35,632 nucleotides of DNA from Magnetococcales bacterium. GTDB taxonomy: Bacteria > Pseudomonadota > Magnetococcia > Magnetococcales > DC0425bin3. The number at the start of each line of letters is the position of its first letter. Positions within the stretch are counted from its first letter, which is position 1. Both the position numbers and the translations under genes were made by a program. Below, piece by piece: positions 6,052-33,211 of this stretch. Where the stretch lies: contig JADGCO010000044.1 in NCBI GenBank assembly GCA_015228935.1, positions 1 to 35,632 of the forward strand, written 5' to 3'. The notes below the pieces were generated by a model that saw only the letters and a program-made list of their open reading frames with translations, was not told where the DNA came from and searched no databases.

Positions 6052-7518
6052 TTATCCGAGAAGGTCGGCCACGCGGGCGAACCAGATGCCCAGGTTTTCG
6101 GGAAGATGCAAACCTGCCCACAAAATCAAGGCCAGATGCACGAACAGCGGCATGAGTGAGGCTTCCAGAGGCCTGGAGGTCCCATCGGGTTCGCCGAACA
6201 GGAGTTCCTGGAGCCTGAGCAGCAGGGCACCAAAGGCGACGAGAAGACCCACAACCAGGATGACGGCCAGGAGCGGTTCACGGGCAAAGGTGGTTGTGAC
6301 GAGGATGAACTCACTGGCGAAGATGCCGAAGGGGGGGAGACCGGCGATGGCGATGACGCCCAGGGCAAGACCCCAGGCGAGGGCCGGATGGCTTTCGCTG
6401 AGGCCGTGAATGGCGTCCATGTCTTTGGTCCCCTTGGCCTGGGTCACATGACCCACGGCAAAGAAGATGGCGGATTTGGTCAGGCTGTGCATGGTCATGT
6501 GCAGCAGGCCGGCAAAATTGGCCAGGGCACCCCCCATGCCAAAGGCAAAGGTGATGATTCCCATGTGTTCGATGGAGGAGTAGGCAAAGAGGCGCTTGAT
6601 ATCCTTGCGTTGATAGAGCATGAATCCGGCGAAGAGAAGAGAGAGGAGTCCCATGAACATCAGGATGGGGCCGGGTGACAGGGATTCCGGATTGCCGGCC
6701 AGGATCATCTTGAAGCGCAGGATTGCATAGAGAGCGACATTCAGCAGCAGTCCGGAAAGGACGGCGGAGATGGGGGTCGGACCCTCGGCATGGGCATCCG
6801 GCAACCAGGCATGCAGGGGGGCAAGACCCACCTTGGTCCCGAAGCCGACCAGCAGGAAGACAAAGGCCAGACTCAACAGTTTGGGATCCATGTTGCCAGA
6901 GTCTGCCACCAGTCTGGTCCAGGTCATGGCGGCCATGCCTTCGCCCACCACGGGTTGGGCGACCAGATAAATGAGAATCGTGCCAAAAAATGCCAGGGCA
7001 ATGCCGACACTGCCGAGAATGAAATATTTCCAGGCGGCTTCCACGGCTTCCGGGGTCCGGTAGATGCCCACCATGACCACGGTCGTGACGGTGGCCATCT
7101 CCAGGCCGACCCACATCAGGCCGATGTTGTTGCTGGAGAGGGCCAGGTTCATGGCAAAGAGCAGGGCCTGATACATGGCGTGATAGAAACGGAGGTGTTT
7201 GGGGGTCAGATGTCCCCTTTCCAGCTCGTGGGCGATATAGGTGGCGCTGAAAATACTGGTGGTCATGCCGACGAAGGTGTTGAGGGCGATCAGGTAGACA
7301 TTGAAGGCGTCCACGAACAGCAGACCGGCAATGAAATGGGGGGTGAAAAACAGATACAGACCCATCATGAAGGTCAGGGCGGTGGCCAGGACGTTGAGCC
7401 AGGCTCCCAGACGAAAGCTGGGGATCAACAAAAGGAGAATCGCCGCAATCCCGGGAATGATCAGGAGGGATTGCAGGGCCATGGCCGGTGTGATCAGAGC
7501 GGTTTCAGGCAGGATCAT
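6052..7518 (-). CDS. HyfF/NuoN-like antiporter-type membrane subunit
   Basis: A 488-residue polytopic inner-membrane protein of the Mrp/NuoL-M-N family, hydrophobic over most of its length with about 13-14 predicted helices. The ion-translocation residues of the family are visible: Glu in MWVGLEMATVTT, Lys in GTKVGLAPLHAWLPDAHAE, Lys in HMTMHSLTKSAIFF, and the GLPPFGIFASEF loop near the C-terminus. These suggest that the complex still couples its reaction to H+ or Na+ movement. Its start overlaps the stop of the HyfE-like gene by four bases (ATGA), so the two are translationally coupled. Confidence 0.92.
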   Translation of the reverse strand: MILPETALITPAMALQSLLIIPGIAAILLLLIPSFRLGAWLNVLATALTFMMGLYLFFTPHFIAGLLFVDAFNVYLIALNTFVGMTTSIFSATYIAHELERGHLTPKHLRFYHAMYQALLFAMNLALSSNNIGLMWVGLEMATVTTVVMVGIYRTPEAVEAAWKYFILGSVGIALAFFGTILIYLVAQPVVGEGMAAMTWTRLVADSGNMDPKLLSLAFVFLLVGFGTKVGLAPLHAWLPDAHAEGPTPISAVLSGLLLNVALYAILRFKMILAGNPESLSPGPILMFMGLLSLLFAGFMLYQRKDIKRLFAYSSIEHMGIITFAFGMGGALANFAGLLHMTMHSLTKSAIFFAVGHVTQAKGTKDMDAIHGLSESHPALAWGLALGVIAIAGLPPFGIFASEFILVTTTFAREPLLAVILVVGLLVAFGALLLRLQELLFGEPDGTSRPLEASLMPLFVHLALILWAGLHLPENLGIWFARVADLLG

Positions 7519-8252
7519 GTGGGTTCTCTCCGGACCGGATCCATGGCGGGAATGACGGGTTGTATCAGACTCTCTCCATGACTGTAGCGACCTTCCAGGC
7601 GTTCTTTGCGGAACCGCTCCAGGGCGGTGATGTCCACGGAATCAAAACGTTCGCGAATCCGGAACAAGAAGATTCCGAATACCAGGAAGGCGATGAGGAC
7701 GGAAAAAGCGACACTGATCTCCACCACGAGCGGCATGCCCTTGGCTCCGGTGGCGGCCAGGATCAGGCCATTTTCCAGGGACATGAAACCGACGATCTGG
7801 CTGATGGCGTTGTGGCGGGTGATCATCATGAGGATGCCCAGGAGAATGACGGCCAGGGCAAAGGCCAGATCCTGCCGGGTGGCAGCGGCGTGGGCCGAGG
7901 TCATGGGCACGACGATCAGAATGGCCAACATGGTCAGAAACACGGCGACAAGCAACGTGGTGCCGATACCGACCACGGTTTCGATATTGCGTTGAATGCC
8001 GAGTTTGCGAATGATGATGCGCAGGACCCAGGGAATCACGCCGGCCTTGACCGTCAGGGCCAGGAAGGCCGTGACCATGAGATGGGGGGCATGCTGGACC
8101 CGGGATTGCCAGGCGACGGCCATGGCCAGGATGACGGCCTGCATGGCAAAGGCGTTGAGGATGCCATACATGCGGGTCTGGTAGAGCAGGACAAAGCTCA
8201 CCATCAGCGTGGAACCGGCCAGCAAATGGGTTACATCCAGATTGTAATCCAC
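7515..8252 (-). CDS. HyfE-like membrane subunit
   Basis: A 245-residue hydrophobic protein matching hydrogenase-4 component E, an inner-membrane subunit with a NuoK-like core. It has several predicted helices from residue 10 to about 200 (for example HLLAGSTLMVSFVLLYQTRM and LAFALAVILLGILMMI). The conserved MSLENGLILAATG segment carries the membrane Glu of NuoK-type proteins. The hydrophilic tail (from about residue 205) is likely cytoplasmic. It lies 2 bp after the HyfC-like gene and overlaps the HyfF-like gene by 4 bp. Confidence 0.9.
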   Translation of the reverse strand: MDYNLDVTHLLAGSTLMVSFVLLYQTRMYGILNAFAMQAVILAMAVAWQSRVQHAPHLMVTAFLALTVKAGVIPWVLRIIIRKLGIQRNIETVVGIGTTLLVAVFLTMLAILIVVPMTSAHAAATRQDLAFALAVILLGILMMITRHNAISQIVGFMSLENGLILAATGAKGMPLVVEISVAFSVLIAFLVFGIFLFRIRERFDSVDITALERFRKERLEGRYSHGESLIQPVIPAMDPVRREPT

Positions 8253-8254
8253 TT

Positions 8255-9211
8255 TTACATCCCTATGGAGACGAACAGGAGGACCATGGCCAGGATACCC
8301 AGGACCAGGGCGATGGTCAAAAACTCCGCCACGCGAAACACCCGCATTTTGGCCACGATGGTTTCGCCGACGGCCAACAGGACGGCGCTGCCGAACAGTT
8401 TGCCCAGGTAGGTGAGCAGACCAAGGCCCATGTCCAGAATGGTCCCTCCGGGAAGGGCCATGCCATAGGGGAAAAACAGGCAGGCGATCATGGAGAGAAA
8501 CAGGACCAGTTTCAGGGCGGATGCGGCTTCGATCATGGCCAGATGCCGACCGGAGTATTCCAGGACCATGGCTTCATGGACCATGGTCAATTCCAGATGG
8601 GTGGCCGGGTTGTCTACCGGGATACGGCCATTTTCGGCGATGGCGACGATGATCAGGGCCATCAGGGCGAGTCCCAGGGAGACGCGCAGTCCGACCTGTT
8701 CGGTGATCAGGAAATGGGCGATTTGCGACAGTTGCGTGGTGCCGGCGAGGATGGCAACGGTAAAGACCACCATCAGCATGGCCGGTTCGGCCAGGGAGGA
8801 GATCATCATTTCCCGCGATGAGCCGATGCCGCCGAAGCTGGTCCCCACATCCATGCCGGCCAGGGCCAGAAAAAAGCGCCCGGTGGCCAGAAGTGCGACA
8901 ATGGCGACCAGGTCCGCAGCCCAACCAAATGTCAGGTTGGTCGTATAGGTCGGGATCAGGGCCGCCGCAACCCAGGTGACGCCAAAGAGAATGTAGGGTA
9001 CGGTCCGGTAGATCCAGGAGGTGTTTTCCGCCATCAAGGCATCCTTGGACAGAAGACGGATCAGGTCGCGATAGGGTTGCAGGAAGGGGGGACCTTGACG
9101 ACGCTGGAGGCGGGCCTTGACCTTGCGCACCACCCCGATCACCAGGGGGGAGACCAGGAGTACCAGAAAAATCTGGACACCCTGGGAAAGGAATTCAACG
9201 ATCATCGCCAT
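8255..9211 (-). CDS. HyfC/NuoH-like membrane subunit
   Basis: This is the NuoH-like subunit that joins the peripheral arm to the membrane arm. It shows RRQGPPFLQPYRDLIRLLSK early on, and the highly conserved ENGRIPVDNPATHLELTM loop plus MVHEAMVLEYSG, both rich in acidic residues linked to ion coupling. About eight helices are predicted. The open frame reaches back to 9352, but the upstream part is hydrophilic, unlike the family, and lies inside the HyfB-like gene. The start is ATG at 9211 or ATG at 9205, the latter giving an ATGA overlap with the previous stop. Confidence 0.9.
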   Translation of the reverse strand: MAMIVEFLSQGVQIFLVLLVSPLVIGVVRKVKARLQRRQGPPFLQPYRDLIRLLSKDALMAENTSWIYRTVPYILFGVTWVAAALIPTYTTNLTFGWAADLVAIVALLATGRFFLALAGMDVGTSFGGIGSSREMMISSLAEPAMLMVVFTVAILAGTTQLSQIAHFLITEQVGLRVSLGLALMALIIVAIAENGRIPVDNPATHLELTMVHEAMVLEYSGRHLAMIEAASALKLVLFLSMIACLFFPYGMALPGGTILDMGLGLLTYLGKLFGSAVLLAVGETIVAKMRVFRVAEFLTIALVLGILAMVLLFVSIGM

Positions 9212-11223
9212 ACGGCAACCACCAGGAGCAGAAGAATCAAGGCTATGAAGCTGATCGTCAAAAATTGACGAATGGTAAGAAAGTGCATGGCGTCGGCGCG
9301 CACCGAGGTGCGGGTCACGAAGCGTCCCAGGGGTGCGAAGATGGATTCCCATACCGGATCGAACATGGAGACAGTCAACCGGGCGGGCCTGGGGTCACCT
9401 GGGGGTGGCATGAAAACGGTTTCGCGGGCCCGGAACCAGACGGTGGCGAAGACGCGCCGGATGGGCTGACTGAAACTGCTGCCGGTATATTGGGTCATGG
9501 GTGACGGATCGGGGAATCCGCAATCCCATGGGGACCCTTTTTGCACAATGTTGGAGGCACGATGATGGATGAACAGGGCGGCCAGGCTGGCTGAGATACC
9601 CACAAAAATAAGAATTGCCAGACTGTTGTAGGAACTTTGGGATATGCCGAACGGCACCAGGAACATCCAGCCAAATCTTGATCCTTCTGTGCCGGTGGCG
9701 ATGGTGGCTCCGAGCAGTTGACCGGGGACGGGCAGGATGATGTCCATGACCAGGGTCGGCAGGATGCCGAACAGCAGGCAGAGACCGGCCAGAATGGACA
9801 TGGCGGAGAGGGAGAAGGGATCGGTTTCGTGGGCATTTTTGGCCATGTCCGAGCGGGGACGGCCCAGAAAAACGACGCCGAAGACCTTGACAAAGCCGGT
9901 GGCCACCAGGGATGCGGTCAGGGCAAGAACGGCCCCGACCAGGGGGACCAGAAATTTCAGGAGCGGTTGGGGAAATTCCGGGCTGGCCAGGATGGCCTGG
10001 AAGGTCAGCCATTCCGACACAAAACCGTTCAGGGGTGGCAGAGCCGAGATGGATGCCGCTCCGACCAGGAACAGAAAAGCGGTGCGGGGCATGCGGTGGA
10101 TCAATCCTCCCAATTGTTCGATATCTCGCTGTCCCGTGGCGTGCAACACGGCTCCGGCTCCCATGAAGAGCAGATTTTTGAACAGGGAGTGGTTCAAGGT
10201 GTGGAACAGGGCGGCGGTGAGGGCGACGGTGGCCCCTTCGGCGTGACCGTTGGCCTGGAAGGCCATTGCCAGACCGATGCCGACAAAGATGATGCCGATG
10301 TTTTCCACGGTGCTGTAGGCCAGGAACCGTTTGATGTCGCGCTGCATGACGGCGTAGAGAATGCCGAGAAAGGCGGTGATGCCGCCGGTGAGCATGATCG
10401 GGACCGACCACCACCACGGATTGGGGCCGGACAGGTCAAAGAGAATGCGGATGGCTGCGTAGACGGCCACCTTGGTCATGACGCCGCTCATCAGGGCCGA
10501 GACGTGGCTTGGGGCTGCCGGATGGGCCAGCGGCAGCCAGACATGCAACGGGACCAGACCGGCCTTCGATCCAGCCCCCATGAGGGTCAGGATCAGGACC
10601 ACGGCGACCCCCCACTCGGGCAGCGTGTTGCCGCGCATGGCGTCGAAGGCATAATCGCCCCTGTCGCCGGCCATGATGCCAAAGGCGAACAACAGCATCA
10701 TGGTGCCGAAACTGGCCATGAGCAGATAGGTGAAGGCTGCGTGGCGGTTGGCCTGGATTCGATGTTCGACGAGGACCAGGCTCCAGGAACTCAGGGACAT
10801 GAACTCCCAGGCGACCAGGAATGAAAAGGCATCATCGGCGATGACGACGAGGTTCATGGCGGCCAGAAAGGCGGGATACATGGGGAGAATGCGCAGGGGG
10901 CGTTCGGCGTGGGCACCGTAGCCGATGCCAAACAGGCTGGCCAGGGTACCGCCCAGGTTGATCACCAGCAGGAAAAATGCCGCCAGGGCATCCAGTCGGT
11001 ATTGAAAGCCGATCCAGGGCAACCCCATATGGAATCCGGTTTTCAGGGGTACCGGATTGACCAGGAGAATGATCAGGCTGATGATCACGGCCAAGCCGCT
11101 CAAGATGGCCGCGCCGCCATACACCAGCCGGAACCAGAAGGGATCTTTTTTGGCTCCAAAGGCCACAAACCCCAGTCCTACAAGCCCACAGCAGATGGCC
11201 AACTCAACATCGAGGGCATTCAT
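9202..11223 (-). CDS. HyfB/NuoL-like antiporter-type membrane subunit
   Basis: A 673-residue polytopic membrane protein, the first gene of the six-gene Ehr-type operon. Key residues of the NuoL/Mrp family are present: Glu in LVAWEFMSLSSW, Lys in GAGSKAGLVPLHVWLPLAHP, the PSHVSALMSGVMTK segment, Lys in NHSLFKNLLF, and SALPPLNGFVSEW. The C-terminal 130 residues include a long hydrophilic stretch and a last helix (FLTISFIALILLLLVVAVW), as in HyfB. The presence of two antiporter-like subunits (this and HyfF) predicts two separate ion channels. Confidence 0.93.
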   Translation of the reverse strand: MNALDVELAICCGLVGLGFVAFGAKKDPFWFRLVYGGAAILSGLAVIISLIILLVNPVPLKTGFHMGLPWIGFQYRLDALAAFFLLVINLGGTLASLFGIGYGAHAERPLRILPMYPAFLAAMNLVVIADDAFSFLVAWEFMSLSSWSLVLVEHRIQANRHAAFTYLLMASFGTMMLLFAFGIMAGDRGDYAFDAMRGNTLPEWGVAVVLILTLMGAGSKAGLVPLHVWLPLAHPAAPSHVSALMSGVMTKVAVYAAIRILFDLSGPNPWWWSVPIMLTGGITAFLGILYAVMQRDIKRFLAYSTVENIGIIFVGIGLAMAFQANGHAEGATVALTAALFHTLNHSLFKNLLFMGAGAVLHATGQRDIEQLGGLIHRMPRTAFLFLVGAASISALPPLNGFVSEWLTFQAILASPEFPQPLLKFLVPLVGAVLALTASLVATGFVKVFGVVFLGRPRSDMAKNAHETDPFSLSAMSILAGLCLLFGILPTLVMDIILPVPGQLLGATIATGTEGSRFGWMFLVPFGISQSSYNSLAILIFVGISASLAALFIHHRASNIVQKGSPWDCGFPDPSPMTQYTGSSFSQPIRRVFATVWFRARETVFMPPPGDPRPARLTVSMFDPVWESIFAPLGRFVTRTSVRADAMHFLTIRQFLTISFIALILLLLVVAVWR

Positions 11224-11458: not shown

Positions 11459-12361
11459 TCAAAACACCATTTTGTTGATGCCGACGGGTGGTTTGGTTTC
11501 CGGTGGGCGGATCACGCTCACGAGACGCAGTCCGACATCGGAGCGTTTGGTGGAGAAGAGTTCAAAGCCGCGGTTGGTGCAGCGCAGGGTGTTGGCGTTG
11601 CCTTGCCAGCCACCGCCACGGATGACCCGATAAGGCGTGGCATTTTCCACTTTCGGGTTGTTGCGTGGGTGGTGGGCATAGGCATCTTTTTGATATGAGT
11701 CCCGGGTCCACTCCCAGACGTTGCCGCTCATATCCCAGATACCCAGGCGATTGGGTTCCCGGGAACCGGTGCGTTGGGTGTTCTGGTTGCTGTTGTCCTG
11801 ATACCAGGCGACCCGGTCCGGATCTCCGCCGCCGGAATAGCGCACATTCTGGCCGCGATTGCGGCAGGTGTATTCCCATTCGGCTTCGGATGGCAGGCGG
11901 AACAGGATGCGGTTGGTATAGATCTGGTTCAGTTTTTCCACAAACCCTTCAATGTCGTCCCAGGCAACCTGTTCCACCGGATAGTCGTCGCCTTTGCGGA
12001 AGTGGGCCGGATTGTTGCGCATGATCTGTCGCCATTGTCCCTGGGTGATTTCGCGCCGGGAAATCCAGAAACCGTCGAGACAGGCTTCATGAACGGGTCC
12101 TTCATCCACCTCTCGACCTTCGGTCTCCGGGTGGCTGCCCATTTTGTAACAGCCGGAGGCGATCCAGGTGAATTCGATGCCACTGACCGGCTCCAGCCAC
12201 GCCTCGCCGGGGGTGATTTGTTCGGCGGGCAGGCGTCCGGTGGCACCAATGTTGATGGCTTCCCATTCATTGATGAGGAATGCCGCAGCGGTCATGGGCA
12301 GCAGCAGGATCAGTAGAAGGAGCGGCATGAAAAAGGGCGGCATGAACCGGAAGCGTACCAT
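11459..12361 (-). CDS. Exported FGE-sulfatase-fold (SUMF1-like) protein
   Basis: The 300-residue product begins with a basic, strongly hydrophobic signal peptide or membrane anchor (FMPPFFMPLLLLILLLPMTAAA). An FGE-sulfatase domain follows from about residue 60: FTWIASGCYKMGS, ISRREITQGQWRQIM, LPSEAEWEYTCR, GIWDMSGNVWEWTRD and RVIRGGGWQGN. The Cys pair used by true formylglycine-generating enzymes near the C-terminus is not evident; only one Cys (LRCTNRGF) is there. It is therefore more likely a binding or structural member of the fold than a sulfatase activator. The ATG overlaps the caspase stop by one base (TAATG) with GGAGGAG upstream, so the two proteins are made together, probably in the periplasm or at the inner membrane. 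Confidence 0.88.
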   Translation of the reverse strand: MVRFRFMPPFFMPLLLLILLLPMTAAAFLINEWEAINIGATGRLPAEQITPGEAWLEPVSGIEFTWIASGCYKMGSHPETEGREVDEGPVHEACLDGFWISRREITQGQWRQIMRNNPAHFRKGDDYPVEQVAWDDIEGFVEKLNQIYTNRILFRLPSEAEWEYTCRNRGQNVRYSGGGDPDRVAWYQDNSNQNTQRTGSREPNRLGIWDMSGNVWEWTRDSYQKDAYAHHPRNNPKVENATPYRVIRGGGWQGNANTLRCTNRGFELFSTKRSDVGLRLVSVIRPPETKPPVGINKMVF

Positions 12362-13953
12362 TATTTTTCTCCTCCGGTCCGGACCAGACGTATGCGGGCG
12401 GGAGTGGAAAGAAAGGGGTCTGCGGTCGGCGCGTCGATACGCAATTGTTCCTGGGCATGGCTGAAGGCTTCCAGGAGATCAACCCACCCGTCACGGGCTT
12501 CCTTTTCCCTGCCATCGGCGAGACCGAGCATGCCCTTCAGGAGGTGGTAGGTGAAGGCTCTCTGTCGGCCAGGTCCATAAATATCGGCATCACCGGTGAC
12601 GGCAGCCACGGCCCAGGCCTTGCGGCTGGCAAAAAGATCGGGGGGAGGTGATGGTCCATCAAAGGGCTGTTGCATGGAACACACTTCCGAGCCGTTGAAG
12701 CAGGCATCGATCAGGACCATGATTTCCGGATTGGGAAGTTTTTCCAGGGTTTCTTTCAAGGTCACCAGGGAGATCGCCTGTTCCGGGGAGATGTCGCCGC
12801 CCGAGGTTTCAACCGGAACCAGAAGGGCATCGGTAACCTGGGTGCGGTCGGCATTGTAGCCGGGGGTACCGTGGCCGGAATAATAAAACACGAGCATCGC
12901 ATTGGGATTGAGACGGCCTTGACCGATCAGCCATTCGAGATCGCGGCGGAGAACGGGCAGGGTGGCTTCTTCGTTGGTGCGCAGGCGCAGATGGTCAGCA
13001 TCGTTTTGCAACAGGCCGCGCCGGGTCAGCAGGGTACGCATGTTGCTCGCATCCCGGTCTGCAAAGTGGCGACCGCGCACCTTTTTGTATTGGCTGATGC
13101 CGACGAACAATCCGTAGGCATCAACCCGTTTTTGCCACTTTTCCAGATTGGGCAGGGCGTTGATGAATTCATCGAGGACATGGCGCTGATCGTCCACATC
13201 CCCTTTTTTGGCCCAGGCTTCATGGGGCAGGGCGATGGAGAAGGGGACTTCGGCATCCGGATCCAGTTCGGCGGCCACGAGCCGGTCTTTGGCTTCGACG
13301 AAGGCGGCTTCGCCGGGATACTCCTTGACAATCTGGCTGACCGCTTCCCGGACGGCATCCATTCCCTCGCCCCGTCGAAATTTCCGCCACAGGGTTTCGA
13401 CCACGTAACGCACGGCCTGGTCTCGCCAGGTTTGTGCCCGGATCCCTTCCAGGTGGGCACGGTACAACCAGTCATAGGCCTCTTTATAGCGTCCCATGCG
13501 AAAGAGGGAGTAGGTTTTGGTGTGGGCCAGGGAGAGGTTGCCCTTGTTGAGCGCCAGTCCCCGGAAAGCCTCGATGTGGGCGCTTTCGTCATCGCCCAGA
13601 TCAAAATAGGTCCAGGCCAGATTGGCATGGGTCTTGACGTGATCGGGATGCAGGTCGTGGGCCTTTTTCCAGACATCACGGGCCTCTTCCTTGCGCCCGC
13701 TCAGGTAATACCCCAGGCCCAGATTGTAGGCCACGGCCAGATCGTTCGGGCATTCGGCATAAGCCCGTTCCAGTCCCTGCAAACCTTTTTCCGGTTGGTT
13801 GGCGAACAGATCGATGCTTTTGCTCGCCAACTCTCTGGCTACGGGGCAGGAAGAGAGTTCGGCGGCACGGCTGTCGTGTTCTGTGGTCAGGATGCCGACT
13901 GCCAACAGGAATCCTGCCAGCCAACGCAACCGGAGCATGCGCAACCGGAGCAT
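12361..13953 (-). CDS. Exported TPR-caspase (peptidase C14 / orthocaspase-like)
   Basis: The protein has an N-terminal signal-like segment (LRWLAGFLLAVGIL), then TPR-type helical repeats (about residues 40-180), a linker, and a C-terminal caspase domain from about residue 285 (AYGLFVGISQYKK). The catalytic dyad is present: His in FYYSGHGTPG (about residue 361) and Cys in VLIDACFNGS (about residue 418). It should be an active cysteine protease acting outside the cytoplasm, with unknown target. The start is uncertain: ATG at 13953 is taken; ATG at 13938 and GTG at 13974 are also possible. The sequence around the start is a tandem 15-bp duplication giving MLRLRMLRLR. It lies just after fba and is coupled to the FGE-fold gene. 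Confidence 0.88.
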   Translation of the reverse strand: MLRLRMLRLRWLAGFLLAVGILTTEHDSRAAELSSCPVARELASKSIDLFANQPEKGLQGLERAYAECPNDLAVAYNLGLGYYLSGRKEEARDVWKKAHDLHPDHVKTHANLAWTYFDLGDDESAHIEAFRGLALNKGNLSLAHTKTYSLFRMGRYKEAYDWLYRAHLEGIRAQTWRDQAVRYVVETLWRKFRRGEGMDAVREAVSQIVKEYPGEAAFVEAKDRLVAAELDPDAEVPFSIALPHEAWAKKGDVDDQRHVLDEFINALPNLEKWQKRVDAYGLFVGISQYKKVRGRHFADRDASNMRTLLTRRGLLQNDADHLRLRTNEEATLPVLRRDLEWLIGQGRLNPNAMLVFYYSGHGTPGYNADRTQVTDALLVPVETSGGDISPEQAISLVTLKETLEKLPNPEIMVLIDACFNGSEVCSMQQPFDGPSPPPDLFASRKAWAVAAVTGDADIYGPGRQRAFTYHLLKGMLGLADGREKEARDGWVDLLEAFSHAQEQLRIDAPTADPFLSTPARIRLVRTGGEK

Positions 13954-13963
13954 GGGAATGCTG

Positions 13964-15028
13964 TCAGGCCACACGGGGATTCAGAGTGCCGGCGGCATAG
14001 CGTTCGGCCATTCTTTCCAGGGAGATCACTTTGATTCTCGATCCCCTGCCAGCGGCTCCAAAGGCCTCATAGCGGGATTTGCAGAGGGCATAGGCTGCAT
14101 CTTCTGCCGGACGCATGTATTTGCGGGGGTCGAATTCCCGGGGATTGACTTTCAGATGGCGGCGGATCGCCCCGGTCATGGCCAGACGCAGGTCGGTATC
14201 GATGTTGATCTTGCGCACGCCGTATTTGATGCTGACGATCAGCTCTTCGATGGGAGTTCCGTAGGTTTCAGGGATGGTGCCGCCGGCTTCGTTGATGACG
14301 GCGAGCAGATCCTGGGATACGGAGGAACCACCATGCAATACCAGATGGGTGTCCGGTATCCGGGCGGCAATATCCTTGACGCGGCTGATGGCCAATTCGT
14401 CATTGGTGGGTTTGGATTTGAATTTGTAGGCACCATGCGAGGTACCGATGGCGATGGCCAGGGCATCCACATGTGTGGCTTTGACGAAGGCTGCTGCCTC
14501 TTCCGGATCGGTCAGCATGTTTTGGCGGATGGTTTTTTCATTCGCATCGGCAGACGTTTTTCCGCCGGTGGGGCCATCCTGCAAGGGTCCCATCACGCCG
14601 AGTTCCCCTTCCACCGAGATACCGACGGCATGGGCAAACTCCACCACTTTCCGGGTGACTTCCACGTTATAGTCGTAGGTGGACGGGGTTTTGCCGTCTG
14701 GCAGGAGGGATCCATCCATCATGACGCTGGAAAATCCGCTCCGGATTGCTGCCTGGCAGACTGCCGGGGTTTGTCCGTGATCCTGATGGACTGCAACCGG
14801 CATGTGGGGATAGAGTTCCAGGACCGCCAGGATCTGGTGGCGCAGAAACCCTTCACCGGCATAGGCTCTCGCTCCGGTCGTTCCCTGGAGAATGACCGGA
14901 CTGTCCGTGTCATGGGCAGCCCGGATGATGGCCCGTGCCTGTTCCATATTGTTGACATTGAAGGCCGGGAGTCCGTAGTCGTGTTCCGCTGCGTGGTCCA
15001 ACAGTTGCCGCATCGATACCAATGGCAT
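13964..15028 (-). CDS. fba: Class II fructose-bisphosphate aldolase
   Basis: This zinc enzyme interconverts fructose 1,6-bisphosphate with two triose phosphates in glycolysis, gluconeogenesis and the Calvin cycle. The 354-residue protein starts [27 protein letters not shown]-like and shows VAVHQDHGQ (metal and catalytic region), [35 protein letters not shown] and KINIDTDLR. Its length is that of the longer class IIB form often found with Calvin-cycle genes, but no Calvin-cycle gene is visible here. ATG 15028 was chosen because GAGGAGGG lies 8 nt upstream. The caspase gene starts 10 bp after its stop, so the three genes may form one transcript. Confidence 0.95.
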
Positions 15029-22671: not shown

Positions 22672-22970
22672 GGAAGCGGAATCCTCTCTCAAGAGTGGTT
22701 GAACCCATACAGTCATTCAGCTTGAATTTTTCAAAGTAATGGATATACCAGCATTATATTTTTTTATTCAAGGATTATTTTTTTACCACACAGTTATCCT
22801 TTTCGCATCATTTGGCCCGCGTATTGCCACTACTGGTCTTAACGGCATGCTTTTAGAAGTTAAACAGGCAGATTTTGCTGGCACAGTCATCCATATGCCT
22901 TAAAAGCAGGCAGAATCTGATCAAAATTATATCATGTACACCTTTGTACCGTTCACTCTGCGAGGCCAAC
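22672..22970. promoter_or_regulatory. AT-rich divergent region upstream of the peptide-ligase cluster
   Basis: A 299-bp gap between the divergent CMD-Rieske and ATP-grasp genes, with T-rich tracts around 22755-22800. It should carry promoters for both, but no hexamer pair was convincing. A short palindrome, GTACACCTTTGTAC, lies at about 22936-22949, some 20 nt before the ATP-grasp start. Confidence 0.4.
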
Positions 22971-24440
22971 ATGAATGCATATGCGCTGCCACAAACAGAA
23001 ACGCCTTTTTACAAGGCTCCTGGTGTCTTTGACGAGTTGGTCATGCAGGCCAGGGGGTCGGCGAGCCATCTGAAACCCCTCATGCCATTCATTGAAAATC
23101 TGGGCATGGAGGAGCTGCATCGTCGGCAGAGTGCCGCCGAGGTTGCCATCCGCAATCTGGGAATCACCTTCACGGTGTATTCGGAAGGGGAAAACATTGA
23201 TCGATCCTGGCCGTTCGACATCATTCCCCGATGCATTGATGCCCGGGAGTGGGAACGTCTGGAACGGGGACTGGTCCAGCGGGCACAGGCGCTGAACGCC
23301 TTTATCGACGATCTGTACAATGAGAAAAAAATCATCAAGGACAAACAATTTCCTGAGGAGGTGTTGGCGGATTCGGTGAATTATCTGCTGCCACTGATGG
23401 GAACGCGCCCCAAATACGGCATCTGGGCACATCTGTGCGGGAGTGACCTGTTGCGTGACCGGGATGGCACCATGTACGTGCTGGAAGACAATCTGCGTGT
23501 GCCTTCCGGGGTCTCCTACATGCTGGAAAACCGTTTGTTGACCAAGCGGGTCTTTCCGGAACTGTTTCGGGACCATGCGATTCGTCCGGTGGATGATTAT
23601 CCCTGCCAGCTCTATGAGTTGCTGGCCTCTCTCACGCCACGACCGGATGAAAAGGCCAATGTGGTGGTGTTGACGCCGGGCATCTACAACTCGGCTTACT
23701 TCGAACATGCCTACCTGGCGCAACAGATGGGCGTGCCTCTGGTCGAAGCGCGTGATCTGTCGGTAGGCGAGGATGATGTCGTGTTCATGAAGACGATTCA
23801 CGGTCTGGAGCAGGTGGACGTGATCTATCGCCGCATCGATGATCAATATCTGGATCCGCTGGTGTTTCGGGCGGATTCCACCCTGGGCATTCCGGGGATC
23901 ATCAAGGCCTGGCGGCGTGGACGGGTGGCCCTGGCCAATGCGCCCGGAACCGGCGTGGCGGATGACAAGGTGGTGTACTCCTACATGCCGGAGATCATCC
24001 GCTACTATCTGGCCGAGGATCCCCTCATTCCCAACGTACCGACCTGGCGGTGTCACATTCCTCAGGAGCGCAAACATGTGCTGGCCAATCTGGACAAGCT
24101 TGTGGTCAAACCCGCCAATGAATCCGGTGGATATGGCATGCTCATGGGGCCGCATGCGACTTCCGGGGAGCGGGCCATTTTTGCCGCCCGGATCCAGGCC
24201 AATCCCCGGAACTACATCGGCCAGCAAACCCTGACCCCCTCCACGGCACCGACCCTGGTTGAAAACCGGTTGGAGCCGCGTCACATGGATTTGCGACCCT
24301 TTATTCTCAGCGGTCGGAAATCCTATGTCACGCCGGGTGGCTTGACCCGGGTGGCGTTGCGGCGGGGTTCATTTGTGGTCAACTCCTCCCAGGGTGGTGG
24401 CAGCAAGGATACCTGGGTACTGGATGCAGGGAGGTCATAA
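22971..24440 (+). CDS. Circularly permuted ATP-grasp protein (DUF404/DUF407), predicted peptide ligase
   Basis: ATP-grasp amidoligases join a carboxylate to an amine through an acyl-phosphate; this permuted family is predicted to act in peptide synthesis or tagging. The 489-residue protein has the family blocks: RSWPFDIIPRCIDAREW, YGIWAHLCGSDLLRD, VLEDNLRVPSGVSYM, VVVLTPGIYNSAYFEH, and the nucleotide-binding VVKPANESGGYGM with Lys near residue 380. STAPTL and RPF/VTPGGLTRVA lie near the C-terminus. All key residues look intact. ATG 22971 is preferred (GCGAGG upstream) over an earlier frame opening at 22875. Its stop overlaps the alpha-E gene by one base (TAATG), so ligase and helical partner are made together. 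Confidence 0.93.
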   Translation: MNAYALPQTETPFYKAPGVFDELVMQARGSASHLKPLMPFIENLGMEELHRRQSAAEVAIRNLGITFTVYSEGENIDRSWPFDIIPRCIDAREWERLERGLVQRAQALNAFIDDLYNEKKIIKDKQFPEEVLADSVNYLLPLMGTRPKYGIWAHLCGSDLLRDRDGTMYVLEDNLRVPSGVSYMLENRLLTKRVFPELFRDHAIRPVDDYPCQLYELLASLTPRPDEKANVVVLTPGIYNSAYFEHAYLAQQMGVPLVEARDLSVGEDDVVFMKTIHGLEQVDVIYRRIDDQYLDPLVFRADSTLGIPGIIKAWRRGRVALANAPGTGVADDKVVYSYMPEIIRYYLAEDPLIPNVPTWRCHIPQERKHVLANLDKLVVKPANESGGYGMLMGPHATSGERAIFAARIQANPRNYIGQQTLTPSTAPTLVENRLEPRHMDLRPFILSGRKSYVTPGGLTRVALRRGSFVVNSSQGGGSKDTWVLDAGRS

Positions 24441-25438
24441 TGCTCTCCAGGGTCGCAGAAAACATTTATTGGATGGCCCGCTATCTGGAACGGGTGGAAG
24501 GTTCTGCCCGGCTCGTGATTGCCACCAACCAGACAATGCTTGACATTGCGCCCATCAGTCACGTCCGTCCCCTGAACTGGTTTCAGTTGATCGCCATCAC
24601 CGGCAGTCGGGAGTGTTATGCCCAGCACCATGCAGCCATCGATGAGGCCAATGTCGTCCGGTTTTTGATCGCTGACACGGCAAACCCCAGCTCCATTCTC
24701 TCGTCACTGCGGCTGGCGCGGGAAAACATGCGCAGCACCCGGGAGGTTTTTCCACGGGAAGCCTGGGAAAGCCTCAATGGCTTCACCATGCGCACCCAGG
24801 AGCTGTTGCACAAGGAGGTCCCGGCGGCAGAACGTCATGAATTCCTGGAAGGAATCATCAATGCCTGCCTGAAACTGACCGGTCTGTTGGACAGCACCAT
24901 GTGCCGGGATGAGGCTTTCCACACGTTCCGGTTGGGTCGTTACCTGGAGCGGGCCGACATGACGACACGCATCCTGGATGTACGCGGGGCGGGCATGCTG
25001 GAAAGCTGGGAGCGCATGGAACTCCCCCTGCGCAACGCCGTATGGCTGACGGTGCTGCGTTCCCTGTCCGGGGACCAGATGTATCGGCGGCGGGTGGAGC
25101 CTCGTATCCGTGGACCGGAAGTATTGGCCTTTCTCCTCAAGGATCGACTGTTTCCGCGCACGTTTCGATATTGCATCGAGGGAGTGGGGGGCAGTCTGAA
25201 AAAACTGCACCGTGATTCGGGTGCCCAACAAGTCATCAAGGCCATTGAGGAGGATCTGTACCTCGCCGATGTGAAGGGATTGGCGGAAGGAGGGAAGCTG
25301 CATGAATTCCTGGACAAACTGCAAATCCATCTGGGCCATCTCCATGAAAAAATCGGGACGATTTATTTCAATCCGCCCCCGTCCCGGCGCGAGGTTGCCC
25401 ATGCCCATGATCAGTCTCAATTTCTGGTGCAAACCTGA
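24440..25438 (+). CDS. Alpha-E domain protein (DUF403)
   Basis: Alpha-E proteins are all-helical and almost always occur next to, or fused with, permuted ATP-grasp enzymes. The 332-residue protein starts with the signature MLSRVAENIYWMARYLERVEG and has FHTFRLGRYLERADMTTRIL in the middle, the typical second E-rich block. No enzyme motif is known; a scaffold or substrate-holding role is inferred. It is coupled to the ATP-grasp gene by a 1-bp overlap, with GGGAGG before its ATG. The same pair is fused in one gene at 26601-29123. Confidence 0.92.
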   Translation: MLSRVAENIYWMARYLERVEGSARLVIATNQTMLDIAPISHVRPLNWFQLIAITGSRECYAQHHAAIDEANVVRFLIADTANPSSILSSLRLARENMRSTREVFPREAWESLNGFTMRTQELLHKEVPAAERHEFLEGIINACLKLTGLLDSTMCRDEAFHTFRLGRYLERADMTTRILDVRGAGMLESWERMELPLRNAVWLTVLRSLSGDQMYRRRVEPRIRGPEVLAFLLKDRLFPRTFRYCIEGVGGSLKKLHRDSGAQQVIKAIEEDLYLADVKGLAEGGKLHEFLDKLQIHLGHLHEKIGTIYFNPPPSRREVAHAHDQSQFLVQT

Positions 25439-25489
25439 AGCCGGCGTCCGGGCGTGGTCCGCCGACGATCCCGGCGCAAGGAACGTTTG

Positions 25490-25573
25490 AAAAACTGGGA
25501 AGGAGGTCCAGGAGGAAGGGCTGTGCCCTTCCTCTTGGCGGGGTTTGGGGCGGAGCCCCAACAAAGTCTTCCA
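25490..25573. repeat. Dispersed palindromic repeat core (no terminal repeats seen)
   Basis: Nearly identical to the inner part of the element at 17126-17292: AAAACTGGGA, the CCAGGAGGAAGGGC hairpin (here with one mismatch in the right arm), GGGGTTTGGGGC and GAGCCCCAA, ending in TCTTCC. The AGAGGCTGTC ends are missing. It lies between the convergent alpha-E and transglutaminase genes, where it can fold as a two-way terminator. Confidence 0.75.
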
Positions 25574-25615
25574 TGTCAAATCCTTTTAATGAAGGGGTTC
25601 TGAATGGTTACGAAT

Positions 25616-25720
25616 CCGGCAGGTTGGCAAGTTGGAGGGTCAGCCGGCAATGATCCCGGAGCAGGAATGGAACGGAAGCGTTTTCGATGAAGCCGGCAGG
25701 TTGGCAAGTTGGAGGGTCAG
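25616..25720. repeat. 28-bp direct repeat, 77 bp apart
   Basis: Positions 25616-25643 and 25693-25720 are identical (starting CCGGCAGGTTGGCAAG). The second copy covers the stop codon of the transglutaminase gene (25717-25719). Confidence 0.8.
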
Positions 25721-26601
25721 ACTGTTGCGGGCGGGATGCGCAGGACATCGACCGCCACGCGCAGCACATGATGACGACCGCCCAGCACCACACCCTTCAC
25801 CGGGGGAATGTCCGTATAATCCCGACCGACGGCCACCGTGATATGGCGTTCAGCCGGCATGATGCCGTTGGTGGGGTCGAAATCCACCCAGCCCATATGC
25901 GGAACATAAAGGGAAAACCATGCGTGGGACGCATCCGCCCCTTCCAGGCGTGTCATGCCTGGAGGGGGATCGGTTTCGAGATAACCGCTGACATAACGGG
26001 CGCAAAGTCCCAGAGAGCGCAAGGCCCCCACGGCCAGATGGGCAAAATCCTGGCAGACACCATGCCGTTGCTCCAAAACCTGTTCGATGGGTGTTGCCAC
26101 GGTGGTGCTGCCGGGTTGGTATCTGAAATTTTGATGGATGCGTTGGGTAAAGGCCAGCGCCGCCTCGACCAGCGGGCGTCCGGGTGAAAAATCCGGACGG
26201 GCAAAATCCGCCAATTGGGAACTGCACGGTGCCATGGGTGATTCCAGGACAAAAAAGGCCTGTCGGCGCATGTCGGCCTGGGTTTCCGGTTGCCCCTGAC
26301 AGCCGCTTTCCCAGGGTGGGGTGGCCGAGGGATCAATAGGTGTCAGGGCAAGGCGCGTGACCTGACTGGTACTCCTGACTTCCAGCTCCTGATGCGGTTC
26401 CAGAATTTCGAAGTAGTGGGCCACATTGCCAAAAAAATCCTCGAATTCATGGAGGATCGCCGGTTCCGGATGCACGGTCAGATCGAAGCGGTGACACGGT
26501 TGCCAGGGAAGATTGCGGGGTTTGAGGTGAATGCGGTTGTGGCAGATCGTGACCGGTTCACCGTAACTGTAGTGGGTGCTGTGAACGATACGGTAGTTCA
26601 T
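25717..26601 (-). CDS. Transglutaminase-like protein (Bact_transglu_N plus core domain)
   Basis: The 294-residue cytoplasmic protein has the N-terminal transglutaminase-associated domain (MNYRIVHSTHYSYGEPV, then HNRIHLKPR) and a papain-like core. Catalytic residues are visible: Cys in RHGVCQDFAH (about 183), His in ASHAWFSLYV (about 226) and Asp in VDFDPTNG (about 242). In such clusters it probably acts as a peptidase or amidase. Its start (ATG 26601) shares one base with the stop of the ATP-grasp/alpha-E gene (TGATG), so it is coupled to it; a GTG at 26604 is the alternative. This gene pair is on the opposite strand to the rest of the cluster. Confidence 0.92.
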   Translation of the reverse strand: MNYRIVHSTHYSYGEPVTICHNRIHLKPRNLPWQPCHRFDLTVHPEPAILHEFEDFFGNVAHYFEILEPHQELEVRSTSQVTRLALTPIDPSATPPWESGCQGQPETQADMRRQAFFVLESPMAPCSSQLADFARPDFSPGRPLVEAALAFTQRIHQNFRYQPGSTTVATPIEQVLEQRHGVCQDFAHLAVGALRSLGLCARYVSGYLETDPPPGMTRLEGADASHAWFSLYVPHMGWVDFDPTNGIMPAERHITVAVGRDYTDIPPVKGVVLGGRHHVLRVAVDVLRIPPATV

Positions 26602-29123
26602 CACCGGGGATTCCTGCTGGTTCTGAAGAGATGATGAGGAGGTTCGGCATGCCGGAAATAACTGTTGGCAGCCGTCTCGGAAAACAATGGCAACAGTTGG
26701 CGGATGCGACCGGTCAGTTCGACGAGTTGTTCGCGTTTGCCGCCTGGCGCGGTGATCCGGACAAGTCGTTCCGGATCAGCCAGGCGCACGGCAGCCAGGG
26801 TTTCAAACACCACCCGGCCCAAATGGGTACGGTAAAGGTTCTGGTCCGGTCCGCGTGGAATTGCTGCGGCATGGCTCTCCATCAAGGTCAATTGAAACAC
26901 CAGGGAACGGGGATCGGTGTCGTCCTGCAACAATTTTTCCAGGACCAGGGGGAGTTCCATGGTGGTCCGGAACTGCATGCGAAAGGCGGTGAGGCTGTCG
27001 TTGATGTTGAGCAACCGCTCCAGAACGGACATTTCGTCCTGTTCTTCAACCGGTTCCGTCAGGGTGGTTTCCAGGATTTGCGCCAGGAACATGCTGCGTT
27101 CCAACCGGCGTCCCAGGTCAAGAAACCGCCATCCCAGGTCCCGGTTCATGTTTTCCCAGGTCAAGCCGGCAAAGGCCGTCAATCCCTGGAGCAGAGGGCC
27201 TGTCTCCCAGAACAACCCTCCGAGATTCTTGGGAATGCGTCCCTGCAAGGTGTCCAGGGAGTGGGAGATGCCGTCCAGGAGTTCCCAGGTATCGGTCGAG
27301 AGTCGATCCCGGACCGAAACAGCCGCCTGCATCAACGAACGCAGAGAATAGGCCAGGGTTCCGACTCGTTCGGAATTCAGGATCATCGAGTACAACTCGG
27401 TGAACGGCTCCGAGAGGGCATACTCGCCTTCCTTGCCGGTGAATCCGGGATAGGTGGCTGTCACATGGGTCAACGTGATCAAAAGAAGACGCCGGCACAG
27501 GAGACGTTGTTGCCAGGTGAGCATGTTTTCTTCCGTATCCAGGGCCATGAATTCCCGGAACAGGCGAATGATCCCTTCGGCCCGTTCGGCATAACGACCG
27601 ATCCAGAACAGATTTTCCGCCACCCGGCTGGGAACCCCCACCAGGGGGGCAGGATCCAGGATGGGCGTACTCACCAGGGTATCCCGATGGTCGAACGGTT
27701 GATCACCGATGATCCAGATGTCTTTGGCAAGTCCGCCCTGATTGGGGGAAAAGGCCAGACATTGTCCGGTTACCGAAGCAACCCGGGCCAGACCACCGGG
27801 CATGACCCGGGCATGTTGGCCATCGCTCGTGAGGTAGGTTCGCATCAGGATGGCATGGTGGCCTGTCTGACCGTCGCGAACGCAGGGTGCCCGGGAGGGG
27901 ACGAAGGGTTCGCGTGCCACATAACGCTGCGGGGCAGCCAGAACCTGTTCCCGGGTCAAGGGTCCGTTGGTCACGTTGCCGGTGATGGGATAGGAGGGAT
28001 CGCAGACCAGGGGCAAAAAGGTCAATTCGGGCCAGCGGGCCATGGCTTCGGTGCGGTGCTGCGGATCCCCCAGCCACCAGGTCCGGGGATTTTTCAACAG
28101 CAACTCTTCATGAAGAAAATAGTCGGCAAGGCCAGGCAGGTAGGCATGCAGGGCGAGGGTTTCCAGGATGCCACTGCCGAGCATGTTGGCCATGGTCAGG
28201 TGTCCGGATCGGGCTGCCTGGGCCAGGCCCACCACCCCCAGCATGGAATCCTCACGCAGTTCAAGGGGATCGCACCATGCCTCATCCACCCGACGCAACA
28301 CCACCTCGACGGGCATCAAACCATTCAGGGTTTTCAGCCACAAGCGACCGTTGCGCACGGCGAGATCATCACCCTGCGCCAGCGTCAAACCCAGAAAGTG
28401 GGCCAACAGGGTGTGTTCGTAGTGCGTTTCATAGCCGGGTCCCGGGGTCAGGAGGACCACATGGGCTTCTCGTTTGGAGAAAGGGGTCAGAGAGACCAGG
28501 TCCGAACGCATGTTGCGAAAAAACGGCAGCAGGGCCGGAATATGGGCCAACTGTCCGGTATTGGCATACAGTCGTCCCATGACGCGCCTGTTTTGCAGGA
28601 CATATCCGTGGCCCGATGGGGCCTGGGTGCGATCCGAAAGCACCAGAAAACGTCCCGTCGGATCCCGCCCCACATCGGCGGCATAAAGTGGCAGCAGGTT
28701 TGCCCGGTCAATGGCCCGACCATGGTTGGCCAGCATGAAGCCGGACCAGGCGTCCACCACCGCCAGTGGCAATATGCCCTCATGCAGACAGAAACGGGGA
28801 CCATACACATCCTGCAACAGCAGGGTCAGCAGCCGATGGCGCTGGATCAGGCCGCGAGAGATTGTCTCCCAGGTGTCGGCATCCAGCATCAGGGGGATTG
28901 GATCCAGGGGCCAGAAATGACGCCGACTGACATCTCCTGTCTGAATATTGTAGGTGGCTCCGGATTCTCGCAGCAAACGCCGGGCATCTTCTTCCAACCT
29001 TTTGGGCAGTTCGGGTCCGCCTGCATAGAGAAAATCAAAATATTTTCGCCAATGCGGTTGCAGTCCGCCATCGCTTCCAAAAGCCTCCCGGTATCCTGGT
29101 TCCCAGTCTTCTTTCACAGGCAA
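26601..29123 (-). CDS. Permuted ATP-grasp fused to alpha-E domain
   Basis: An 840-residue fusion: ATP-grasp-like part about 1-475 (HFWPLDPIPLMLDADTW, LYAADVGRDPTGRF, VLSDRTQAPSGHGYVLQNRR, VVLLTPGPGYETHYEH, VMPGGLARVAS) and alpha-E part from about 498 (VPSRVAENLFWIGRYAERAEG, then RDLGWRFLDLGRRLERSMF). Where relatives carry a basic residue in the VIRPAF/VVKPAN nucleotide-binding strand, this protein reads LTFLPLVCDPSYP (about 367-379). ATP binding by this copy is therefore doubtful. The frame opens with TTG at 29123; GTG at 29117 is also possible, neither with a strong ribosome site. It is divergent from the Anbu gene with only 22 bp between. Confidence 0.9.
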   Translation of the reverse strand: MPVKEDWEPGYREAFGSDGGLQPHWRKYFDFLYAGGPELPKRLEEDARRLLRESGATYNIQTGDVSRRHFWPLDPIPLMLDADTWETISRGLIQRHRLLTLLLQDVYGPRFCLHEGILPLAVVDAWSGFMLANHGRAIDRANLLPLYAADVGRDPTGRFLVLSDRTQAPSGHGYVLQNRRVMGRLYANTGQLAHIPALLPFFRNMRSDLVSLTPFSKREAHVVLLTPGPGYETHYEHTLLAHFLGLTLAQGDDLAVRNGRLWLKTLNGLMPVEVVLRRVDEAWCDPLELREDSMLGVVGLAQAARSGHLTMANMLGSGILETLALHAYLPGLADYFLHEELLLKNPRTWWLGDPQHRTEAMARWPELTFLPLVCDPSYPITGNVTNGPLTREQVLAAPQRYVAREPFVPSRAPCVRDGQTGHHAILMRTYLTSDGQHARVMPGGLARVASVTGQCLAFSPNQGGLAKDIWIIGDQPFDHRDTLVSTPILDPAPLVGVPSRVAENLFWIGRYAERAEGIIRLFREFMALDTEENMLTWQQRLLCRRLLLITLTHVTATYPGFTGKEGEYALSEPFTELYSMILNSERVGTLAYSLRSLMQAAVSVRDRLSTDTWELLDGISHSLDTLQGRIPKNLGGLFWETGPLLQGLTAFAGLTWENMNRDLGWRFLDLGRRLERSMFLAQILETTLTEPVEEQDEMSVLERLLNINDSLTAFRMQFRTTMELPLVLEKLLQDDTDPRSLVFQLTLMESHAAAIPRGPDQNLYRTHLGRVVFETLAAVRLADPERLVRITAPGGKREQLVELTGRIRQLLPLFSETAANSYFRHAEPPHHLFRTSRNPR

Positions 29124-29145
29124 CTTTCTGTATTTTAGAGGAATT

Positions 29146-29892
29146 ATGACATACTGCGTCGGAATTCAACTGCATGAAGGAATGATACTCGCCTCCGATT
29201 CACGGACCAATGCCGGTGTGGATCAGGTGGGTTCCTATCCCAAAATGTTCAACTTTGTCTGGAAAGGGGAGCGACAGTTTGTGCTGCTCTCTTCGGGAAA
29301 TCTGGCCACCACGCAAGGGGTGGTGCATCGGCTTTTCCTGGACAGCGAAAGTTCCGAGTGCCAGACCAGTCTCCGCACGGTGGTGGACATGCATGCGGCG
29401 GCGGACTATGTCGGCTCGGTCAACCTCGACGTGCAAAAGCGTTTCGAAAACCGGCAAGACCCACAGGTTCGTTTTGAAGCCACGTTCATTCTGGCGGGGC
29501 AAATCGGTTCGGCCCGTCACGCCATGTTTTTGATCTATCCCGAAGGCAATCATATTGCCCCTTCTCCCTACCACCCTTTTCTCCAGATTGGCGAAACCAA
29601 ATACGGCAAACCTATTTTGGATCGCATCGTTCATGCCGAAATGTCCATGGATGATGCTTCGCGTTGCGTGCTTGTATCCCTGGATTCGACCATGCGTTCC
29701 AACCTGACGGTCGGTCCGCCCATTGACCTGCTCAAACTGCGCACGGGTGAACTTGATGGAGGCGTGCAGGTTCGCCTGGGACAGGACAATCCCTATCTTC
29801 TCTCCCTGTGCAGGCATTGGCACAGAGGTCTCGAACGCATTTTTCACGGTCTCCCCCCACTCAATTGGGAAAGACTCAAGGATCAACACTAG
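29146..29892 (+). CDS. Anbu, proteasome-type NTN-hydrolase
   Basis: Anbu is a bacterial relative of the proteasome beta subunit and HslV. The 248-residue protein starts MTYCVGIQLHEGMILASDSRTNAGVD; after removal of Met the N-terminal Thr is the nucleophile. The Asp in ASDSRTN (position 17) and the Lys in YPKMFNF (position 32) complete the NTN catalytic set. No propeptide is present, as usual for Anbu. AGAGGA stands just before the ATG. The transglutaminase-DUF2126 gene follows after 22 bp on the same strand. The setting points to hydrolysis of the peptide or conjugate made by the cluster's ligases. Physiological substrate unknown. Confidence 0.95.
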   Translation: MTYCVGIQLHEGMILASDSRTNAGVDQVGSYPKMFNFVWKGERQFVLLSSGNLATTQGVVHRLFLDSESSECQTSLRTVVDMHAAADYVGSVNLDVQKRFENRQDPQVRFEATFILAGQIGSARHAMFLIYPEGNHIAPSPYHPFLQIGETKYGKPILDRIVHAEMSMDDASRCVLVSLDSTMRSNLTVGPPIDLLKLRTGELDGGVQVRLGQDNPYLLSLCRHWHRGLERIFHGLPPLNWERLKDQH

Positions 29893-29914
29893 AGCTTTCG
29901 CGAGGGTCTTCTCC

Positions 29915-32900: not shown

Positions 32901-33211
32901 CTCCACTGGTGTTCGACATTGTGGACACCTGGAACAAGCGGGCCATCGGCGGGTGTACCTATCACGTTGTGCATCCGGGAGGACGCCATTACGACACCTT
33001 CCCCGTCAACACCTGTGAGGCGGAAGCTCGCCGTGGCAGCCGGTTCTGGGAGTGGGGGCATACTCCGGGACCTTTTCCCAACTCTCCGCCGCCATCACCG
33101 CCGGTCGGTGGCCGGTTTGTGCCCCAGGGCAGTGGTGCCGAATCGGTACCACTTCTCACGCCTGCCATCAATCCGGAGTATCCCAACACATTGGATCTAA
33201 GACGTTTGTGA
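29915..33211 (+). CDS. Transglutaminase-like domain fused to DUF2126 (predicted GS-like amidoligase)
   Basis: A 1098-residue protein. The N-terminal transglutaminase-like part (1-290) has Bact_transglu_N (MTIRLAIRHQTVYRYDR) and a core with Cys about 180 (GTGSCRDTGWLL), His about 229 (TDLHAWCEVYL) and Asp about 245 (IGLDPTSG). The rest is DUF2126, predicted to be a circularly permuted glutamine-synthetase-like COOH-NH2 ligase: HLTMGGEPTFVAIDDMDG near 330, FGQGKWYPGEELPRW, GVIEVNIQPAHSW and GTGGGNHVTLGG. ATG 29915 has GAGGGT about 10 nt upstream; the longer frame from 29723 lies inside the Anbu gene and is rejected. Length is normal for the fusion family. It completes the second ligase type of the cluster. 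Confidence 0.93.
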   Translation: MTIRLAIRHQTVYRYDRLVALSPHVFRLRPAPHCRTPIESYTLKIQPENHFINWQQDPFGNHLARVVFPERSRELLMDVELVARMVTINPFDFFLEEAVRTFPFSYAKEVERELLPYLEIKEESPLLEEWLQGLHQKTSGTVDFLAALNQRLCRDIGYTIRMEPGVQKCEETLRKGTGSCRDTGWLLVQALRRLGLAARFVSGYLIQLVADVKALDGPSGPLADFTDLHAWCEVYLPGAGWIGLDPTSGLFAGEGHIPLACTPDFRSAAPVTGSTDPCQVEFHHQNSLTRLHEDPRVTRPYSDVQWQEIQALGEQVDAGLQAGQVHLTMGGEPTFVAIDDMDGPEWTTAADGPNKRERALDLLQRLAGHFAPGGMLHFGQGKWYPGEELPRWRYSCYWRVDGVPLWHTPTLQGNPTRADGVDGKTAHRFAQNLAARLGPISEALLPVYEDPIYHIWQEYALPVGVDPLQASLTDPLERQRLAHILGQGLHQPVGFVLPLAWEPSASTWQSCHWKTRQGHLFLVPGDSPMGLRLPLRSLHAVPPEKRPLPPERCSFEPREALAEKQPVHAACLDEFVGTALCVEPRGGRLYLFLPPITHLEGFIALVEAIEATARELDIPVLMEGYPPPEDWRLKKFHVTPDPGVIEVNIQPAHSWQELVTLTTILYEEARQARLGTEKFLLDGRHTGTGGGNHVTLGGPTPAESPLLRRPDLLASLVTYWQHHPGLSYLFSGLFIGPTSQAPRVDEGRDETLHELEIALSQIPDGEVDQPWLVDRLLRHLLADISGNTHRTEFCIDKLYAPDSPTGRLGLLELRAFEMPPHARMSLVQMVLLRSLIALFWQKPYRHSLVRWGTALHDRFMLPFHVTRDVTEVAAELRANGFAFQDAWLDPFVEFRFPILGEIQVQGIHLEVRHALEPWNVLGEEVTRQGTTRFVDSSVERLQVRLTNLPPDRYWLTCNGRKVPLHNTGTVGDYVSGVRFKAWQPSSALHPLIPVHSPLVFDIVDTWNKRAIGGCTYHVVHPGGRHYDTFPVNTCEAEARRGSRFWEWGHTPGPFPNSPPPSPPVGGRFVPQGSGAESVPLLTPAINPEYPNTLDLRRL

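Follow-up and report, generated by a model that had tools for sequence, protein, structure and literature searches.

A TPR–caspase-fold protein and its FGE-fold partner: a candidate two-protein envelope module specific to Magnetococcales

In the Magnetococcales, a caspase homologue of the exported type belongs to the vertically inherited gene core of the order; it mostly lacks the catalytic His and is nevertheless strongly constrained, together with a partner gene encoding an FGE-fold protein. On balance, with a confidence somewhat above even, we propose that the two gene products constitute a Magnetococcales-specific envelope module, i.e. an exported TPR-pseudocaspase and an FGE-fold partner that would form a periplasmic complex and act by binding rather than by cutting. 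Rather than a protease, the pair would thus probably be a part of the cell envelope with a structural or sensing role. Discussions of prokaryotic caspase homologues usually treat them as cell-death or defence proteases. The window, i.e. the whole stretch of DNA analysed here, comprises 35,632 nucleotides of a Magnetococcales bacterium (assembly GCA_015228935.1, contig JADGCO010000044.1), and GTDB places its relatives in the Magnetococcales.

Results

The block of three genes lies on the minus strand. Its upstream gene, fba (13964..15028, minus strand), encodes a class II fructose-bisphosphate aldolase of subfamily B (PF01116; TIGR01521 with 530 bits, exceeding the cutoff of 496). The fba stop is at 13964, and the caspase gene (12361..13953, minus strand), which encodes an exported-type TPR-(pseudo)caspase of 530 amino acids, starts 10 bp beyond with an ATG at 13953. 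Alternative starts are an ATG at 13938 and an in-frame GTG at 13974, with the latter running into fba. The beginning of the gene (13924-13953, minus strand) carries a 15-nt tandem duplication with 14 of 15 bases identical, ATGCTCCGGTTGCGC ATGCTCCGGTTGCGT, which results in the two in-frame ATG starts. At its other end, the TAA stop has exactly one base in common with the ATG of the third gene (12361, TAATG), as the initial annotation had already read it, and this third gene encodes an exported-type FGE-fold protein of 300 amino acids (11459..12361, minus strand). Just 5' of this start, within the last caspase codons (Gly-Gly-Glu), there is a Shine–Dalgarno-like sequence, GGAGGAG (12369..12375, minus strand). 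Because such motifs recur ahead of the FGE-fold start in 24 of 30 related loci, translation of the two genes is probably coupled. The embedded Shine–Dalgarno sequence also accounts for the Gly-Gly-Glu being kept at the caspase C-terminus, so this conservation was set aside as an argument at the protein level. Scans for promoters and terminators gave results no better than those for shuffled sequences.

Among 40 distinct orthologous loci, there is not a single one in which the FGE-fold gene is not directly 3' of the caspase gene (39 of these adjacencies were found via tblastn; the fortieth, L030/L058, is a partial match at a contig end), and in most loci the gap between the two genes is -4, -1 or 0. 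Thus, the co-occurrence of separate, exported and co-translated caspase-fold and FGE-fold proteins, the absence of which in relatives would have spoken against the initial annotation, holds throughout. By contrast, the placement behind fba, which had been regarded as unexpected, turned out to be no peculiarity of this genome, since fba is directly upstream of the caspase gene in 31 of the 40 loci. Where it does not adjoin the pair, fba is located elsewhere in the genome (G027), and in G003, G021 and G025 (loci L140, L137 and L138) only a 43–45% identical homologue is present, again elsewhere in the genome, which suggests replacement of the aldolase. Neighbourhood clustering found no gene besides fba, caspase and FGE that is common to more than nine neighbourhoods. 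With the caspase/FGE pair never split and fba sometimes absent, the pair is an inseparable unit, whereas fba is a conserved but optional companion, whose link to the pair may reflect conserved co-transcription rather than a metabolic role.

Two other groups of genes in the window deserve mention. Directly downstream of the pair (6052-11223, minus strand), there are genes for Complex I/hydrogenase-4-like membrane subunits (two Proton_antipo_M, one NADHdh); of the loci examined, L029 from the nearest relative is the only other one in which the first of these genes adjoins the pair. At 22875-33211, genes for a circularly permuted ATP-grasp protein, an Alpha-E protein and a transglutaminase/DUF2126 amidoligase are clustered in what looks like a peptide-modification type cluster.

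Full-length caspase orthologs (44–77% identical) are spread across the Magnetococcales and occur in all 27 good-quality genomes (completeness of 90% or more, contamination of 5% or less), and a search of about 350 genomes sampled elsewhere in the phylum yielded no full-length relative. The gene is therefore as universal as those for LptD and TolB, which are present in 27 and 26, respectively, of the same 27 genomes. Its absence from G006 and G030 looks like an assembly gap, because contigs break at the locus (ending inside fba in the former and starting inside the FGE gene in the latter), and the other apparent absences concern genomes that are just 57–78% complete (G001, G033, G047). Moreover, pairwise distances between caspases correlate with those of LptD (r 0.96) and TolB (r 0.91), which argues for vertical descent. 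The caspase/FGE pair is more than a chance arrangement; it marks the Magnetococcales as a whole and has been inherited vertically.

Does this unbroken pairing imply a complex? Rate co-variation was dropped as a proof of interaction: although the partial correlation between caspase and FGE reaches 0.84 against fba, before controls with TolB and LptD, the caspase–FGE values (r 0.85–0.90) are no higher than that for caspase and LptD (0.96) and thus show vertical descent only. It is unlikely, but deserves to be weighed, that these are simply two envelope proteins encoded in one operon, which do not form a complex and have a non-catalytic job each. This would agree with a co-variation that does not exceed that of either protein with LptD or TolB, and co-translation alone can preserve adjacency. 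Yet the pairing is unbroken in 40 loci even though linkage to fba is missing in nine, and fusions of caspase and FGE domains, which are frequent elsewhere (PMC3501461) and of which this very genome has one (L002/L026), support a functional coupling of the two.

This fusion (G000:C43:29046-30647) is a 569-amino-acid frame that combines a signal-peptide-like start, a caspase domain with intact AGHG/DAC motifs and an FGE domain. The same genome contains an unusually high number of FGE-sulfatase domain matches (27 in 4.7 Mb; loci L008–L027), many of them in long multi-domain frames. A second caspase-domain protein of about 820–900 amino acids, distinct from the paired family, recurs across the order (G002:C96, G013:C1:4339264-4339722, G034:C88, G040:C103 and others).

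Both members of the pair seem to be exported, as had been annotated. Using a home-made heuristic based on hydropathy, charge and AxA motifs rather than SignalP, we assigned putative signal peptides to residues 1–30 of the caspase-fold protein (13864..13953, minus strand; SRA|AE) and to residues 1–27 of the FGE-fold protein (12281..12361, minus strand; AAA|FLINEW). By this measure, both N-termini look Sec-type, with net charges of +4 and +2 and peak hydropathies of 2.57 and 3.14, respectively, and throughout the 30 loci examined both were assigned signal-peptide-like N-termini, leaving no indication of a cytoplasmic location for either. In these 30 loci, the predicted cleavage of the FGE-fold protein falls just ahead of a conserved F/Y-L-x-N-E-W motif. 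The caspase was modelled by AlphaFold with residues 1–33 as the sole segment under a pLDDT of 50.

Overall, this model is of good quality (mean pLDDT 87 for the whole chain, pTM 0.71). Its helices, together with Pfam TPR matches (TPR_2, 2e-8), delimit a TPR/helical-repeat region at residues 36–232 (13258..13848, minus strand), the first helix pair of which is flanked by Cys36 and Cys68, both invariant in all 40 orthologs. A p20 caspase fold follows at about residues 276–505 (12439..13128, minus strand), as seen from the match to Peptidase_C14 (PF00656, 6e-13, above cutoff) as well as from Foldseek, which matched the model to MALT1 and metacaspases (E 8e-8, TMt 0.70).

The His–Cys dyad noted in the initial annotation is indeed present in the window protein, with His361 in YYSGHG (codon 12871..12873, minus strand) and Cys418 in DACFN (codon 12700..12702, minus strand). 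As a sign of a working caspase family, however, it finds no support. While the Cys is invariant, the His column of the 40 orthologs contains Leu in 25, His in 9, Trp in 3, and Phe, Arg and Asn in one each, with Phe in the nearest relative, which is 77% identical. Thus, the family-wide His and Cys of active orthocaspases is not found here, and the dyad substitution of pseudo-orthocaspases is seen in 31 of the 40, although not in the window copy. The surrounding motif (Y-x-S/A-G-x-G) is still conserved where the His is replaced. In a tree calculated with the His column left out, the His-bearing rows cluster in one group, which also includes three rows with other residues, and at least four changes are required for the His, with the root not inferred. 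For seven close pairs, including His-less ones, dN/dS of the caspase gene is 0.09–0.20, i.e. purifying selection acts on the His-less copies as well.

Furthermore, the conserved Cys is accompanied by a second one seven residues on (Cys425; codon 12679..12681, minus strand), which is invariant in all 40 orthologs, the His-bearing ones included, and which the intact caspases examined lack: six of six paralogs from the same genome (with SGHG or AGHG plus DxC) and six of six relatives from outside the Magnetococcales (with [SA]GHG plus DxC) have kept the dyad and do not have this residue. In 39 of 40 orthologs, the Cys add up to an even number (four in 32, six in seven). This pattern suggests that Cys418 and Cys425 form a disulfide, and the family most likely consists of pseudocaspases, the former nucleophile of which would sit in this bond.

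Since both dyad residues are kept in the window copy and eight other orthologs, these could still have protease activity, and the pair might then be an active exported caspase with a partner serving as its substrate, inhibitor or targeting factor. The invariance of the Cys and the clustering of the nine dyad-bearing orthologs in the tree would fit such a role, which we nevertheless consider quite unlikely, because the His is lost in 31 orthologs, even in the nearest relative, under normal purifying selection, and because the second invariant Cys could sequester the nucleophile. Being invariant and located at the active-site position, the two Cys could also act as a redox sensor, with the Cys418–Cys425 bond opening and closing with the periplasmic redox state and thereby altering binding by the TPRs or of the partner and, in the His-bearing species, even unlocking a protease; a disulfide with a purely structural role, however, accounts for the data just as well, and we regard this sensor as very improbable.

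The partner has the FGE fold (PF03781, 3.7e-42), with its FGE-sulfatase domain at 11519..12169 (minus strand) and four invariant Cys (71, 94, 166, 261); exactly four Cys are present in 38 of 39 partners. In FGE, the catalytic Cys pair binds copper and follows an RGG motif. The partner does not have this pair, as stated in the initial annotation: the aligned region reads RGGGWQG..L where the enzyme has GGSxxC....C, i.e. in RGGGWQGNANTLRC the two positions that we take to be those of the catalytic Cys are occupied by Gly and Leu, with the four invariant Cys lying elsewhere. In a tree with the 18 FGE-fold paralogs of the genome, partner orthologs group apart from these as one clade (100% SH-aLRT). 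Of the solved relatives of the partner, Treponema TvpA, PorK/GldK and PvdO are closest, with true FGEs coming only after these; a structure model of the partner itself was poor (pLDDT 63). In 32 of 38 complete orthologs, the protein ends with -Pro-Phe behind an unconserved linker (Val-Phe in the window protein; 11462..11467, minus strand), an ending seen in none of the 18 paralogs. Judged from these sequences, this is a pattern typical of a short docking motif, for which the TPR groove would be an obvious candidate site and a PDZ domain another.

Discussion

An important question is how a TPR-pseudocaspase and an FGE-fold protein could act together in the envelope. In the module that we favour, the two proteins would be co-translated, leave the cytoplasm via Sec and probably assemble into a periplasmic complex. 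Disulfides between Cys418 and Cys425 and between Cys36 and Cys68 may lock the caspase fold, with the TPR/caspase protein as a scaffold and the FGE-fold partner supplying a ligand-binding or structural surface and perhaps docking through its conserved C-terminal -Pro-Phe tail. As a whole, the pair would serve a constitutive function in the cell envelope. A defence or abortive-infection system, as formed by other bacterial caspase effectors, is extremely improbable, since matches to the generic 'caspase' model of PADLOC (3e-10) and to NF047832 (EACC1-type caspase; 45.6 bits, under the cutoff of 140) are set against a pair that is exported, vertically inherited and evenly distributed as a core feature, in most loci has no shared neighbours beyond fba, caspase and FGE, and in most copies has lost the dyad.

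In its most far-reaching form, which we put forward as a long shot, our proposal would be that of a lineage-defining envelope machine of the Magnetococcales, in which the caspase fold, once that of a protease, now serves as a disulfide-controlled, redox-responsive scaffold that grips the -Pro-Phe tail of the FGE-fold partner and is as indispensable as LptD or TolB. In any case, the natural series of His, Phe, Leu, Trp, Arg and Asn at a single site raises the question of what a caspase fold can do without catalysis, and the pair is a marker and possible envelope component of magnetotactic cocci.

With bacterial orthocaspases (MEROPS C14B p20; GSU0716, PDB 3bij; by fold also MALT1 and metacaspases), the active forms of which cut after basic residues, the Magnetococcales protein shares the caspase/haemoglobinase fold, the SGHG and DxC positions and TPRs, which are a common extra domain in this group. 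In contrast to these, it is of the exported type with N-terminal TPRs, has mostly lost the His, contains an invariant second Cys and comes with a separate FGE-fold gene. Pseudo-orthocaspases have been described chiefly from Rhizobiales and Cyanobacteria, with dyads that are chiefly YS, YA, FS, QC and HA (Klemencic et al. 2019, PMC6426788), and they too are clade-wide conserved proteins with a substituted dyad, some of them with TPRs or export-like N-termini; in the Magnetococcales copies, however, Leu-Cys prevails, and the Cys, which has been retained, forms a pair with a second one. A survey of prokaryotic metacaspases found FGE-sulfatase domains in 4.9% of them (Asplund-Samuelsson et al. 2012, PMC3501461). 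Such fusions, including that in this genome, combine the same two folds, whereas here they are distributed over two genes, TPRs have been added and the dyad is mostly lost, although the fused paralog keeps it. The FGE-fold envelope proteins PorK/GldK, PvdO and TvpA have the same FGE/C-type-lectin-like fold as the partner and are likewise exported or at the surface, but have different partner genes, and the Magnetococcales protein scores far under the equivalog cutoffs (GldK, TIGR03525, 100 versus 350 bits; PvdO, 79 versus 500 bits). In the open-access literature searched, we found no paper that names a Magnetococcales pseudocaspase family, which is not proof of absence. Overall, caspase-fold pseudoenzymes and caspase–FGE fusions are already known, and it is as a variant of these that the Magnetococcales pair is new.
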